Assembly (NCBI GenBank): GCA_023136815.1
Contig: JAGLQM010000008.1
Span: 1-12,610, forward strand
DNA: 12,610 nt
Origin: Thermoplasmata archaeon
Lineage (GTDB): Archaea > Thermoplasmatota > Thermoplasmata > SG8-5
Reading direction: 5' to 3'
Below the pieces are notes generated by a model. The model searched no databases, was not told the origin of the DNA, and saw only the letters and a list, made by a program, of their open reading frames with translations. The translations under genes and the position numbers were made by a program. Below, piece after piece: positions 1,849-7,521 of the stretch. Within the stretch, counting starts at the first letter, position 1. Every line of letters begins with the position of its first letter.

Positions 1849-4800
1849 ATGAGAAGAGTATTAATCAAATCTTTCTGCATTGTGTTAGTGGGCTTAATGT
1901 TTATTTCATGCTTTAATTCTGTTATGGCAAAAACAAATAATATTGAATCAAATCAAAGCATTGATATTGAATCACAAATATTGCCCATAGTCAATGACTA
2001 TAGAAATAAAGTAATATCAATTGATGAAAACTCTCCCATTTCTGAAACAAACGTGGGATTTCCCAAAGAAGATGTAAATATAGACTACGACAATGATAAT
2101 TATATTGTTGTGTATGGGCAGTATAAAGATAGTAATGGACCCATGATAAATGAAACAGTGTATTTATTTCATTCAGTATCTGGACCCGATTTATTAATTG
2201 CCCAAACTCAAACAACCAGCCATGGTGAATTTTACCATTATCTACCATATTTTAAAGAGAAATACAATATTTACGTATGTTTACAGAGGGACAACACACA
2301 AGGAATGGAAACATTTGGCTTTTCAGATATCATCGATATTTCTTCCCTGACTTCGCCATTCAACTTTGGTAGGATATCGGTTGATAGCAATATAATGTTG
2401 TCATCAGATAGTGATCAAACCACGCCAAATACAGCCTTATCCGTAGATATTATAGGTAATGTAAATTATTATAAATATACTTTTGATGGCACATATATTG
2501 GATTACAGGCATTAGAGGGAATTACAGTTGAACTTTGGAGGGATAGTTCACCCGATATTAACACGGGATATTCAACAACCACAACAAGCTCAGGGTCCTT
2601 TACAATACCTAGTGTCGTGAATACTATATATTCTTACTTCACTCGTGTGGTTTCCGATGTGCCCGGGATATGTTATGTAGAAGATAGTGGAACAAAATAT
2701 AGTGCAGATAGTTCTATGACATACACTCCTTGGGTAGGGGATACGAGTTGGCCATTACCTATTATTGCTGATCACAAATGTTGGAATATATGTGATGTTA
2801 TTACTGATCAAAGAAATTGGTTAAAATCTGAAACTACTTCGATTGTGGCTGGTGGTTGGTCCAGAAGCACAATTGAAATACGTTTCCCTGGTACCGGAAA
2901 TTCTCATTTCTCGTATAATCTTATAGGTACAAATTACATTAGCCTTATTGATAGTTCAGGCTATTACGACTCTACTATCAGACATGAATATGGACATGCA
3001 ATCATGTGGAGCATTTATGGAAATATTCCAGCAGGAGATGATGGCCAGAGCCATTGGTTGCAATTGGAAACATATCCAAAATTTGCTTATAAAGAAGGTT
3101 GGGCAGAATTTATGGCATGTGCTGCAGGAAATGATGCAAATAGCTATCGATATTTAGTCTCAACCACCGCTACAAACGTTGAGTATAATCATTGGGAACG
3201 ATGGGGGGACTCATTTCACCAATCTGGTAACATAGAAGATAACTTTGATGGTGATTCTGTAGAGGGAGCGGTGGCCAGCATTCTCTGGGATATATTTGAT
3301 GACTCAACTGCCTCGGATGATCCCATGAATCAGATAAGTGATGGCATTGATATATCTGGCTCAGATGACCCACATGCCAACACACCAGGAACTGAGCCAA
3401 TAATTGAAGATTGTCTGCAATATGGTATTGATGATATAATGGATATATTAATTACATATGAACCACAAAACATCAACGATTTTTATGATGATTGGGTTTC
3501 AAGCGGTCGCACTGATTTACATTGGATGAAAGCAAATTACTACAATCATGGAGTAACTGGTGGATATGGCACTAATAACTTACCAGATCAACATGAGCCA
3601 GAAGGTCTTGACTTTGATATAATTCTCCCTGTAAACGGAGGTTATTACAAATCATCAGATATCATCAATTATGAGCTCGATTTGATTGAATATGATGCTG
3701 AAGACAGAAATTATCTCCGTGTTAGATTAGAATATTATGATTCATCATCATGGGTTACGTTCCATGAAGAAACCTTTACTGGTGTGGGACATGTTACTGG
3801 CTCATTTCCTGCTACTACTCTTCCTGATGGTGATTATCGTACAGATTTTGATTTTAGGATTTGGGTTGATGATGATATGGAACAAACTCTTGTGTCCGCA
3901 ACTAATCCAGATACAATCTACATTGATACTGTCGCCCCATCAGCACCCACATTAACTGAAACGCATTGTGGAAGCGGCTGGACAACACACAACACCCCAT
4001 ATTATGACTGGAACTCCCCATCTGAACCTTGGGGTATGGATTATTATGAGTTAGTTGTTGATGGCATTACAGTAAGTTACTACAATACGTTTTATTCTTC
4101 TTCTTCCTATTTACATTTAGCTTCAGGTCTTACCTCCGGTATCTATGACGCAAAGGTACGTGCTTTTGATATGGCAGGTAATCCAAGTCCTTGGTCAAAT
4201 ACCGTTCAAGTTAAAATTGATACAACACCCCCACCAGCTCCAACCTCGGGACTTCCTGATGATCAAACATTTACGACATCAACTGGTTCTGTATCTCTTA
4301 GCGTTTCATGGAACCATGTCAGTGACCCGGAAAGTGGCATATACACTTATCGACTTGAGATAGACCAAGAAAGTGGCTTCACATCACCTATCGCTTTTGA
4401 AATCGACAGTTCTAATCCCTATATTCCTGTGAATAACATTGGAATTGGAACATGGTATTGGAGAGTAAAAGCGCAGAATGACGCAGGATTATATGGTCAA
4501 TATAGTTCAACTTATTCATTTATAATCTCCGCATCAAGTAGTGGCGGTAGCACTGGTGGCACAGGGGGTACCGGTGGGACAGGTGGTACTGGCGGTACTT
4601 GTTTTCTGTCAGGAACACAAATACAAATGGCCGATGGAACCCAAAAGGAAATTCAGGACCTCACTGTTGGAGAGGCAGTCATGTCTTATAGTGAGCTTCA
4701 ATCAATAATCCAGCCTAATATCATCACTGATACCTTTACACATATGGCCACAGAGTATTTGATTATTAACGACTTTTTGGAAGTAACCGGTAATCATCTT

Positions 4801-7521
4801 ATGTGTGTCAACGGTGAGTTTATCCCCGCATCAAAAATTCAGATCGGGGATGTTCTTCAGGGCCTGAATGAGAACGTTATTGTAACCGGCATTGAAAGTA
4901 TAGTAGATGATGTTATCGTTTACAATATTGAAGTTAGAAACAACCATAATTACTTTGCGAGTGATATATTATCACACAATAAATACATTTCAAACGATCC
5001 TCCACCAAACGGTGGAGGAAGCACAGGCGGTGGTGGAGGTTGTTTCCTTCCAGAAACCTCAGTAATGATATCTAACTGGACTGAGAAAAATATTGAAGAT
5101 ATAGATATGGGGGATTATGTTCTATCGTACAATGAAATAACTGGAAACATAGAATCAAATAAAGTTATTGGGTTGAGTAGCCATGTTTCTTCAATGTATC
5201 TTAATATCAATGATATGAGGTTAACTGAAACTCATCCTATTTACGCGTCCGGAGTAATTAAAACAGCAAAGGACATTAAAGAAGGAGATATTCTTATGGA
5301 ATTAAATGGCTCTATTGAAGTTACTTCTGTTAGTAGAATTGTTGAGTCAAACACGGTTTATAATATTGAAGTAGAAAACAACCACAATTATTATGCTGAA
5401 GGAATACTCGTTCATAATAAAGAAGCACCATATGGTGGCCCAATGCCACTGGGTTGCCCATACATAGCACCTTGGGATGGGTCAAACTATGTTATTGACA
5501 ACAATATCTTACCACAATCTGAGAACTATGGACGTTCAGAGTTAGATGTTACAGAAAGGTATGTTTTAAACAATCCTATTGCTACAAAAGATGGGTTCCT
5601 TTCTATGAAAATTGTTGAATATGAAAACGAACACTCATACTTTGATAACTTCCAGCTAACTGAATTGAAGCACCCAGAAGACTCCTTCCTTGCAGTTTCT
5701 TCAGAAGGGGATTTACTTGCATTTAATGGTGATGACATGGAAGCTGCAATTTCAGCAGAGGATTCTGAATACATTGATGTTTTGTATCACATCGAACAAC
5801 CAGATTCTAAATCATATTATGGAGAGATTGGTGATTGGGTTGAAATTGAATTTGGTCAAATAAGTAGCTATGATGAGTTGGACTTAATACTCAAGACAAA
5901 CACAACCTTTTTCGAAAAGAGTTCAATCATTGTTCAAGTTCTTGGTCCTGATGGATGGTATAACGTAAGTCAGATATCACCACACATGGAATTCTCTTTA
6001 CATTATTCAAACCTAGCTAATCATTTACCAGATCTAGAAGGAGATTTTAAAGTTAGATTGTTCTGGACATCAGGCCATGTATTAGATTATGTGGGTCTAT
6101 ACACCGGATCTACGTTACCAATCTACTATGGTGAATGTGAGTTGGTAAGAGCTACCCAGTCATATTTTGGGAATATCACCAACCGACTTCTGTCTATAGA
6201 TGAATATTATACTGATTTGATTCCAGGAGATGAAATCACACTTGACTTTAAACCACCATTAATGAGCATTGGTGTAATTGGTTATACAACAAGCTATCTC
6301 TTCACATCTATTGGGCATTATTACCCCTTGCACGTGATTGGAACTTCCCAATTCGTGAATGTGTCTGTCTCTCTTGAAGGGGATACGAATACTGAAGCTA
6401 CTGTTGAAATCCGAAGGATTGTCAACTCATTTGGTGGATACGAAACCTTAGTCACATACAATCTGTCTGTAAACGGAAATGATACTGCTGACTTGTGGTT
6501 TATCTATCATCCAGAGGAGGAATATCAGATAGTTTACCTGTTCTCAAACAGGACAGAAAATACAGTTGTAACAACCAGCCTACGGTCAATATTAGGAAAT
6601 GAAGAAAGTTATACAATCGAGGGCGCCGGAGCCAATGAATTCATTTCAATTAATGATGAGCTGAAAACTGTTGTTGGAATTTGGGCAGACATATATTCAA
6701 AGGAGCCCATTGCTTACAAGAATATTCCAATCAATTTCGGAGTTGTCAATAGACCCCACAAAGATTATTCCAACCACAACCTAACAGAGATTTATTGGGA
6801 CTTCGGTGATGGTTATGAATCCAACACAACCTGGCCTACACATACGTACTCTGAAGCAGGAGATTATCTTGTTATCCTTAATATGACATTCAACTATCAG
6901 AACCAATCAATAACACGAACGAAATATCTGCATATTCATGTTCCGATTGTTGAACCAGTGCCCGACTTCATAATCTATCAAGATGTTGAAATATCTCTGA
7001 ATGTTGCTGGCAGAAAAGGCAACACGGTTACCTGCCAGATATACGAGGAGGGCATCCTCATAAATGAATTGCCGGTGACCAGAACAACCGGAAATCCAAA
7101 TGAGGGGACAATCTCATTCAACAAGTATCTGGATAGGGAATCTAATATTGTATTAGTTTACGATGCGGGACACAAAGGAGCAAATCCCACATGGCTCTCG
7201 TTCTATTCTGGCGATAACACAATAGAGTCTTTCGTCGAGTTCAACACGAAGGATGGTTATCAACAAGGAGCCATAGTTGACACTTCATGTCTGGCCGACT
7301 GTTTGCAAGGCAATCGTGGTTTCTTCTTTGATGCATCTGGTTCATATGATGTAGATGGTGAAATAGTATCATATGAATGGGACTTTGGGGATGGGAAAAT
7401 CGGTTCTGGAGAAATTATCGAACACACCTTCATAGAAGCCGGAATATATACAGTAATTTTGACTGTGACCGATGATGATGGAGCCGTAGGCATAAAAACA
7501 CTAGAGCTTATAATTCCTTGA
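1849..7521 (+). CDS. Giant secreted zinc metalloprotease with two tandem Hint (intein-like) domains and PKD domains
   Basis: 1890 residues, start at ATG 1849, because MRRVLIKSF... opens a clear Sec signal peptide cleaved after A27. Order (approximate): Ig/transthyretin-like domains 80-150 and 196-285. Metalloprotease about 300-590 with HEYGH at 379-383 and EGWAEF at 416-421, so H379, H383 and probably E416 bind zinc (gluzincin pattern). Three Ig/FN3-like modules 590-895. Gly/Thr linker to 917. Hint 1, 918-1044. Twenty-residue linker. Hint 2, 1065-1190. A domain opening GCPYIAPWDG near 1202-1210. PKD domains with WDFGDG at 1650 and 1844. No membrane anchor or sorting tail is visible at the C-terminus. 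The upstream 211-residue gene ends 2 bases before it. The Hint domains suggest self-processing that separates protease and PKD halves (inference). The gene is AT-richer than the flanking housekeeping genes. Confidence 0.9.
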   Translation: MRRVLIKSFCIVLVGLMFISCFNSVMAKTNNIESNQSIDIESQILPIVNDYRNKVISIDENSPISETNVGFPKEDVNIDYDNDNYIVVYGQYKDSNGPMINETVYLFHSVSGPDLLIAQTQTTSHGEFYHYLPYFKEKYNIYVCLQRDNTQGMETFGFSDIIDISSLTSPFNFGRISVDSNIMLSSDSDQTTPNTALSVDIIGNVNYYKYTFDGTYIGLQALEGITVELWRDSSPDINTGYSTTTTSSGSFTIPSVVNTIYSYFTRVVSDVPGICYVEDSGTKYSADSSMTYTPWVGDTSWPLPIIADHKCWNICDVITDQRNWLKSETTSIVAGGWSRSTIEIRFPGTGNSHFSYNLIGTNYISLIDSSGYYDSTIRHEYGHAIMWSIYGNIPAGDDGQSHWLQLETYPKFAYKEGWAEFMACAAGNDANSYRYLVSTTATNVEYNHWERWGDSFHQSGNIEDNFDGDSVEGAVASILWDIFDDSTASDDPMNQISDGIDISGSDDPHANTPGTEPIIEDCLQYGIDDIMDILITYEPQNINDFYDDWVSSGRTDLHWMKANYYNHGVTGGYGTNNLPDQHEPEGLDFDIILPVNGGYYKSSDIINYELDLIEYDAEDRNYLRVRLEYYDSSSWVTFHEETFTGVGHVTGSFPATTLPDGDYRTDFDFRIWVDDDMEQTLVSATNPDTIYIDTVAPSAPTLTETHCGSGWTTHNTPYYDWNSPSEPWGMDYYELVVDGITVSYYNTFYSSSSYLHLASGLTSGIYDAKVRAFDMAGNPSPWSNTVQVKIDTTPPPAPTSGLPDDQTFTTSTGSVSLSVSWNHVSDPESGIYTYRLEIDQESGFTSPIAFEIDSSNPYIPVNNIGIGTWYWRVKAQNDAGLYGQYSSTYSFIISASSSGGSTGGTGGTGGTGGTGGTCFLSGTQIQMADGTQKEIQDLTVGEAVMSYSELQSIIQPNIITDTFTHMATEYLIINDFLEVTGNHLMCVNGEFIPASKIQIGDVLQGLNENVIVTGIESIVDDVIVYNIEVRNNHNYFASDILSHNKYISNDPPPNGGGSTGGGGGCFLPETSVMISNWTEKNIEDIDMGDYVLSYNEITGNIESNKVIGLSSHVSSMYLNINDMRLTETHPIYASGVIKTAKDIKEGDILMELNGSIEVTSVSRIVESNTVYNIEVENNHNYYAEGILVHNKEAPYGGPMPLGCPYIAPWDGSNYVIDNNILPQSENYGRSELDVTERYVLNNPIATKDGFLSMKIVEYENEHSYFDNFQLTELKHPEDSFLAVSSEGDLLAFNGDDMEAAISAEDSEYIDVLYHIEQPDSKSYYGEIGDWVEIEFGQISSYDELDLILKTNTTFFEKSSIIVQVLGPDGWYNVSQISPHMEFSLHYSNLANHLPDLEGDFKVRLFWTSGHVLDYVGLYTGSTLPIYYGECELVRATQSYFGNITNRLLSIDEYYTDLIPGDEITLDFKPPLMSIGVIGYTTSYLFTSIGHYYPLHVIGTSQFVNVSVSLEGDTNTEATVEIRRIVNSFGGYETLVTYNLSVNGNDTADLWFIYHPEEEYQIVYLFSNRTENTVVTTSLRSILGNEESYTIEGAGANEFISINDELKTVVGIWADIYSKEPIAYKNIPINFGVVNRPHKDYSNHNLTEIYWDFGDGYESNTTWPTHTYSEAGDYLVILNMTFNYQNQSITRTKYLHIHVPIVEPVPDFIIYQDVEISLNVAGRKGNTVTCQIYEEGILINELPVTRTTGNPNEGTISFNKYLDRESNIVLVYDAGHKGANPTWLSFYSGDNTIESFVEFNTKDGYQQGAIVDTSCLADCLQGNRGFFFDASGSYDVDGEIVSYEWDFGDGKIGSGEIIEHTFIEAGIYTVILTVTDDDGAVGIKTLELIIP
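4543..4599 (+). repeat. GGT/ACN-rich repeat coding for the Gly-Thr linker before Hint 1
   Basis: A run of GGN-GGN-ACN codons (9-base units with varied third positions) encodes four to five copies of Gly-Gly-Thr immediately before the catalytic Cys of Hint 1. The varied third bases mean the peptide, not the DNA, is under selection, although unit gain or loss is still plausible. It forms a flexible, exposed junction. Confidence 0.7.
4600..4980 (+). other. Hint domain 1 (intein-like), within the giant surface protein
   Basis: Residues 918-1044 (127 residues) of the 1849-7521 product. It starts with C918 (CFLSGT, block A), has T980-GN-H983 (block B, TxxH) and the block F run VYNIEVxNNHNY, and ends with H1043-N1044 (block G). 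These are the residues that drive N-S acyl shift and Asn cyclisation in inteins and bacterial intein-like (BIL) domains. The residue after Asn is K1045, not Cys/Ser/Thr. No homing endonuclease fits in this length, so it is a minimal Hint. Confidence 0.85.
5041..5418 (+). other. Hint domain 2 (intein-like), within the giant surface protein
   Basis: Residues 1065-1190 (126 residues). It starts with C1065 (CFLPET) after a poly-Gly stretch, has T1126-ET-H1129 (TxxH) and the same VYNIEVxNNHNY run as Hint 1, and ends with H1189-N1190 followed by K1191. The whole catalytic set is intact. The Gly in the usual CFLxGT of block A is replaced by Glu. Its middle differs strongly from Hint 1, so the pair is not a recent exact duplication. 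Confidence 0.85.

Follow-up and report, generated by a model that had tools for sequence, protein, structure and literature searches.

Organization of the locus

The analysed window (a stretch of 12,610 nucleotides, contig JAGLQM010000008.1 of a Thermoplasmata archaeon) carries a long open reading frame for a putatively exported protein of 1890 amino acids, whose features are as follows:

1849..7521, + strand: whole frame (1890-aa protein), with a hydrophobic N-terminus, a putative metalloprotease half, a Gly-rich linker, two Hint domains, a C-terminal module and PKD domains
2983..3111, + strand: putative zinc site, HEYGH (residues 379-383) and GWAEF (residues 417-421), from a motif scan and related frames
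4564..4599, + strand: Gly/Thr-rich N-flank of Hint 1, GGTGGTGGTGGT (residues 906-917)
4600..4980, + strand: Hint domain 1 (residues 918-1044; C918, TGNH, H1043-N1044), from profiles and a predicted model
4981..5040, + strand: 20-aa spacer KYISNDPPPNGGGSTGGGGG (residues 1045-1064), with Lys1045 at position +1
5041..5418, + strand: Hint domain 2 (residues 1065-1190; C1065, TETH, H1189-N1190), from profiles and a predicted model
5419..5454, + strand: 12-residue C-flank, starting with Lys1191 and preceding the CPY.. module
5455..7521, + strand: conserved C-terminal module, comprising C1 (CPYxxxWNGTDY), C2 and C3 (AGRKGNT), plus PKD domains

The Pfam search of the whole protein returned no protease family for the N-terminal half, its sequence matched no solved structure, and only two proteins related to it were detected in the protein database. 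The predicted model of residues 1191-1714 is mainly beta; Foldseek gave no clear assignment for C1, the matches being to PKD domains and, weakly, to multi-domain beta proteins.

The next gene encodes urocanase on the opposite strand and is followed by annotated or regulator-like genes. No immunity-like gene was found among the neighbours. Location within a mobile island was rejected, since the neighbouring genes encode ribosomal protein L44e, urocanase, AMMECR1 and an amidohydrolase. Two short frames precede the long one. In the first (870-1196, + strand; 108 aa), 82 columns align with residues 393-467 of the 1890-aa protein at 34% identity (E 3e-8); it looks like what is left of a protease gene, or an incomplete copy of one, immediately upstream. 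The second (1212-1847, + strand; 211 aa), which gave no Pfam match, is hydrophobic over a stretch close to the N-terminus, and it overlaps at its end with the TTG start region of the long frame.

Hint domains and their relationship to known systems

Curated profiles match residues 918-1044 and 1065-1190, and the predicted model places both segments in the Hint fold, with BIL2 of the Tetrahymena BUBL1 locus (6y75, 6tmm) as the top solved-structure match. Cys1, TxxH and the terminal His-Asn are present in both copies, in which the residue following the Asn (+1) is Lys, not Cys, Ser or Thr. BIL2 itself is not known to have a nucleophile at +1. With lengths of 127 and 126 residues, the two Hints could not hold an endonuclease insert. 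A sequence-only reading of this DNA had proposed two complete Hint domains in one exported archaeal protein. Profiles, catalytic set and predicted fold agree with it, structure prediction having returned the Hint fold for both segments.

As judged from sequence, both segments fit the A-type bacterial intein-like (BIL) domains (Amitai 2003 and Dassa 2004, as cited in the accessible parts of PMC4031507, PMC7664689 and PMC7765530): the predicted Hint fold, Cys1, TxxH and His-Asn occur together with a +1 position, here Lys, at which Cys, Ser or Thr is not conserved. The available text of PMC4031507 describes type A BILs as having His-Asn and as able to splice, with cleavage dominating; in the splicing route proposed there, the freed amine of the C-fragment attacks the N-terminal thioester. 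The window Hints share with A-type BILs, as presented in these partial accounts, the fold, Cys1, TxxH, the terminal His-Asn, the dispensable +1 nucleophile and the location in variable protein regions. The accessible review accounts (PMC4031507, PMC7664689, PMC7765530) place BILs in bacterial proteins; unlike the A-type BILs described in them, those of the window form a tandem pair in an archaeal, putatively secreted protein and have Lys at +1.

BIL2 of the Tetrahymena polyubiquitin locus forms, according to the available part of PMC8616854, an isopeptide with the epsilon-amine of lysine, and is the one studied precedent that we found for such a reaction by a Hint. Its likeness to the window Hints lies in its structure, the closest found; they may also share its reported lysine chemistry. 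The flanks differ: those of BIL2 are ubiquitin-like domains in the same partial account, whereas the window Hints lie between the putative metalloprotease half with its Gly-rich spacer and the beta-rich/PKD half. No ubiquitin-like domain was found in the Pfam matches of the whole protein or among the listed fold matches of the C-flank. A Hedgehog Hog domain was rejected because the intein-type terminal His-Asn is present in both copies; the room after the Hints amounts to 20 residues (Hint 1) and, up to C1, 12 residues (Hint 2).

A family of proteins sharing the C-terminal module

Four proteins (P0004, P0012, P0123, P0124) align with residues 1191-1890, covering 97-99% of this stretch, and C1 was detected in at least 12 of 189 proteins, including that of the window (the C-terminal relatives in this tally were the best 120 of 242). 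A Hint lies directly before C1 in 11 distinct proteins: the window protein, with two copies, and ten with one (P0004, P0007, P0008, P0012, P0016, P0017, P0019, P0123, P0124, L042). In all 11, the His-Asn is separated from the first conserved Cys of C1 by 6-14 residues. The expectation that Hints stand at the end of a protein or before a toxin domain therefore fails here, as the ten other proteins carry their single Hint in the middle, at the same boundary. Seven proteins have C1 without a Hint (P0125 (= L039 = L246), P0128, L038, L243, L245, L047, L053), and processing thus cannot be essential to the family; the ratio of members with and without Hints is biased towards Hints, as 7 of the 11 Hint-bearing members came from the Hint search itself, and a fragment truncated at a contig start (L041) was excluded from it. 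All named members are archaeal except L038 (Anaerolineales bacterium).

The single-Hint members resemble the window protein in the place of the Hint before the same module, in the catalytic set and in a Lys within +1 to +3, but they differ from it in having one copy and in their N-terminal halves. PF00082 (subtilase) was found in the N-half of P0004, P0012, P0016 and P0019, and other members have other N-half types. PF13582/PF13688, which we take to be metalloprotease families, were matched in that of P0123, and relatives of the putative metalloprotease half of the window protein are present in P0017 and P0125. The nearest N-half relative in the order of the window (genome G396, L246), a C1-module protein with no Hint, matches the 571-residue N-half query at 40% identity across query residues 265-571. 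Cys1, TxxH and His-Asn are intact in all 12 family Hints, despite identities of 35-52% between Hint 1 and the ten compared with it. The +1 residue is Lys in seven, Val in three, and Ala and Glu in one each; a Lys is present at +1, +2 or +3 in 12/12.

Within the order of the window, a Hint of the C1-family kind occurs in 4 of 13 genomes (one gene each) and the C3 stretch in 8 of 13. The genome of the window (950 kb, 61% complete) yielded no further Hint, and a family member with one Hint, 1902 aa long, is encoded in another genome of its genus.

Origin of the tandem pair and adjacent Hint domains in other proteins

In the Hint tree, a quick tree flagged for few columns, Hints 1 and 2 both fall inside a 12-row group of C1-adjacent Hints (SH-aLRT 86), neither being placed as the sister of the other; the shortest tree path from each leads to P0004 (1.34 and 1.36, versus 1.53 between Hints 1 and 2). 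Either a duplication inside the family or an exchange with a paralogue, for example that of P0004, would fit this. The two-copy state, found in one of the 11 Hint-bearing members, could be a neutral duplication; the second copy may provide redundancy or ordered release, or may simply be a duplicate.

Searches for adjacent Hints returned many such proteins, with up to nine Hints behind a subtilase in the same phylum. Among 68 Hint relatives, nine have Hint matches at most 40 residues apart, as read by eye from domain matches (P0002, P0003, P0005, P0009, P0010, P0011, P0014, P0015, P0054); P0067, with two endonuclease-bearing inteins 30 residues apart, was excluded. Hints were found in 51 of 389 genomes of the phylum sample, and 20 stretches were fetched from 12 of these 51. 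Adjacent matches occur in at least six of the 389, including that of the window (G000, G060, G100, G184, G252, G269), with incomplete active sites in some. With the tandem alignment as query, 27 of the 52 genomes in the order of G100 gave a match. Among full-length Hints, the complete catalytic set is retained by 41 of the 52 that have a neighbour no more than 40 residues away versus 55 of 66 single ones, which indicates that tandem copies are not generally decayed. In several proteins the two members of a tandem pair group as sisters on the tree (P0011, P0014, L097), so such copies arose more than once.

The nine-Hint array is encoded by a 2927-aa frame of genome G100 (contig C62; L091:150-8930, + strand), in which Peptidase_S8 (1214-1428) is followed by Hints with spacers of 1-5 residues; Cys1, TxxH and HN are present in 9/9 and Thr/Ser at +1 in 8/9. 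Identity between the copies, at 31-69%, rules out a simple assembly duplicate as the source of the array; with Thr/Ser at +1, they may splice as inteins. Serial splicing of this protein would join its spacers into one short peptide. P0003 (1285 aa) consists almost wholly of seven strong Hints with spacers of 1-3 residues, and P0015 has four. A weak eighth match precedes the seven in P0003, near whose end lies a collagen-like GPPGPQGPPG stretch. In the viral scan with the tandem alignment, which kept the best 80 of 198 loci, two to four Hint matches were present in 38 of the 82 frames with a Hint; the query favours tandem cases in this count, and a few of the 38 are probably inteins split by an insert. 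These arrays resemble the window in their head-to-tail Hints with most active sites intact, but the spacers measure 1-7 residues in L091, P0003 and P0015 and 20 in the window.

Several viral loci (L111:3129-5903, L127:190-2913, L119:4101-5861 and similar) encode proteins of ~590-925 aa in which a part of ~300 aa precedes two to four Hints. By eye, this part recalls ATP-grasp, a reading supported by no Pfam or PHROG name, and the neighbours include radical-SAM-like frames; several of these proteins stop one or two residues past the last Hint (HN-K). Another viral protein (L133:276-7751; 2492 aa) has DUF4815 and two adjacent Hints.

Thus, the part of the sequence-only reading that placed two Hints on a putatively exported archaeal protein stands, but the setting is less unusual than it assumed: the architecture recurs, the window protein being its form with two copies, and many other proteins also carry Hints side by side. 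Our literature search, outside which most subscription papers lay, found no account of two, several or multiple Hint/BIL domains, nor of tandem Hints in archaeal secreted proteins.

Lysine residues following the predicted cut site

Residues following the Asn were compared in 221 distinct His-Asn-ending Hints (the 12 family ones included) from the protein database, same-phylum and viral samples, after removal of 28 without terminal HN and 4 duplicates from 253. Lys occurs within +1 to +3 in 140 of 186 Hints without Cys/Ser/Thr at +1 versus 5 of 35 with it, and this association is new here. By source, the former proportion is 60/72 for the protein database (where the query, which holds HNK, may favour Lys matches), 10/25 for the same phylum and 70/89 for the viral set (the DNA patterns of both viral scans did not extend to +1, although the query did enter into the selection of the best 80). 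Further out, Lys was found in 19/155 (+4 to +6) and 16/152 (+7 to +9), the background in the same proteins being 5.1%.

With one vote per cluster, the counts were 98.3/132 (60% identity), 54.6/74 (50%), 32.5/43 (45%) and 12.8/18 (40%), the last against 2.2 for random 3-mers of the same proteins (sd 1.28, maximum 7.3 of 1000 draws). At 40%, Arg is not enriched (1.1 versus 1.8 expected); Cys is (3.2 versus 0.6), probably because the Cys of the next Hint follows in arrays. Lys at +2/+3 was found in 7.4 of 13 clusters where +1 is neither Lys nor Cys/Ser/Thr, versus 2.1 of 12 with Cys/Ser/Thr there. The enlarged viral set gave raw Lys counts of 98/123 without +1 Cys/Ser/Thr versus 1/25 with it, and 25.0/39 clusters at 50% (random 5.7, sd 1.8), but 4.1/10 at 40% (random 1.3, sd 0.9, maximum 5.1 of 500); Arg is fairly frequent in it (7.4/39 clusters at 50%, with no control). 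At the family level, then, the signature is strong, and it weakens across the deepest splits. Of 110 viral frames, 22 end a single residue past the last Hint, and that residue is Lys in all 11 such frames listed.

Nine proteins with alpha-2-macroglobulin Pfam matches carry one mid-protein Hint (P0021, P0026, P0027, P0032-P0036, P0038), followed by [D/Q]K in 8/9; P0036, from Woesebacteria, is named alpha-2-macroglobulin.

Proposed processing and alternative explanations

What the data show directly is the two domains with their catalytic residues and the fold predicted for them, their conserved place ahead of the C-terminal module, and the lysine excess; the activity of the Hints, and the timing, products and purpose of processing, are what we infer from them. 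Given A-type catalytic residues in Hints without Cys/Ser/Thr at +1, self-cleavage at four bonds is the expected chemistry, and self-processing of the window protein is the best inference. On balance, we lean towards self-cleavage that separates the two halves, the thioester being partly captured by a nearby lysine. The A-type BIL-like Hints would process their own chain, probably after export, as follows: (i) an N-S acyl shift would activate the bond before each Cys (C918 and C1065), (ii) cyclisation of N1044 and N1190 would cut the chain after each Asn, and (iii) water or an amine close by, Lys1045 or Lys1191 being the likeliest, would resolve the Gly-rich thioester end, and a fraction would thus be religated. 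This would yield the putative protease half (up to residue 917), both Hints in free form, the 20-residue spacer and the beta-rich C-terminal half (from 1191), and the purpose may be to separate or re-attach a catalytic half and a binding half.

The lysine near the cut site hints that the Hints may glue as well as cut. It is possible, though in our judgement unlikely, that they are chiefly ligases, which would transfer the N-part, as a thioester on its Gly-rich tail, to a lysine amine in cis (Lys1045/Lys1191) or on another surface molecule, as has been reported for ubiquitin-like conjugation by the ciliate BIL2. The lysine excess (140/186 versus 5/35, persisting after cluster correction at 40%), the absence of Arg enrichment at that level, the single terminal Lys of the viral frames listed and the BIL2 match, with the isopeptides reported in the accessible part of PMC8616854, are consistent with this. 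However, the enrichment may stem from common descent, or from something that Asn cyclisation requires, and not from an acceptor role; it is reduced in the viral-only 40% clusters and the same-phylum sample (10/25), Arg in the viral set and Cys are also frequent, and no ubiquitin-like neighbour was seen at the window locus.

That the folded Hints are inert remnants retained as spacers is quite improbable: seven family members lack a Hint and copy number varies, but the catalytic residues are kept in 12/12 family Hints despite their divergence. We give very little credence to canonical (class 1) inteins with complete, traceless splicing, for which the intein-type blocks and the +1 Thr/Ser of the tandem relative L091 might speak; Lys is at +1 in both window copies, Cys/Ser/Thr in 0/12 family Hints, endonuclease room is lacking, and the junction is not a conserved-protein site, being Gly-rich and preceding a module that also exists without a Hint. 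A pre-toxin Hint releasing a C-terminal effector is equally hard to credit: PT-HINT is the best Pfam Hint name for the whole protein, but what follows is 700 residues of a beta-rich module and PKD domains common to the family, with no immunity-like neighbour, urocanase on the opposite strand as the next gene and no small same-strand gene of known family directly after.

Implications

If the Hints cut as proposed, some secreted archaeal proteases would mature by built-in intein chemistry, a route that we did not find described in the literature searched. For protein engineering, the arrays of up to nine Hints provide a naturally occurring collection of adjacent domains of splicing type, and the lysine signature makes the acceptor question accessible to point mutants. 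We regard as speculative, and rather doubtful, the broader view of a large BIL-like class in archaea, bacteria and phages in which Lys within three residues replaces the +1 Cys/Ser/Thr and makes the Hint an ATP-free, lysine-directed ligase, tandem copies serving as multi-step conjugation platforms on secreted enzymes and L091 stitching its 1-5-residue spacers into one peptide by serial splicing. If the nearby lysine is indeed the acceptor, the lysine ligation described for a single ciliate BIL would extend to many archaeal, bacterial and viral proteins.
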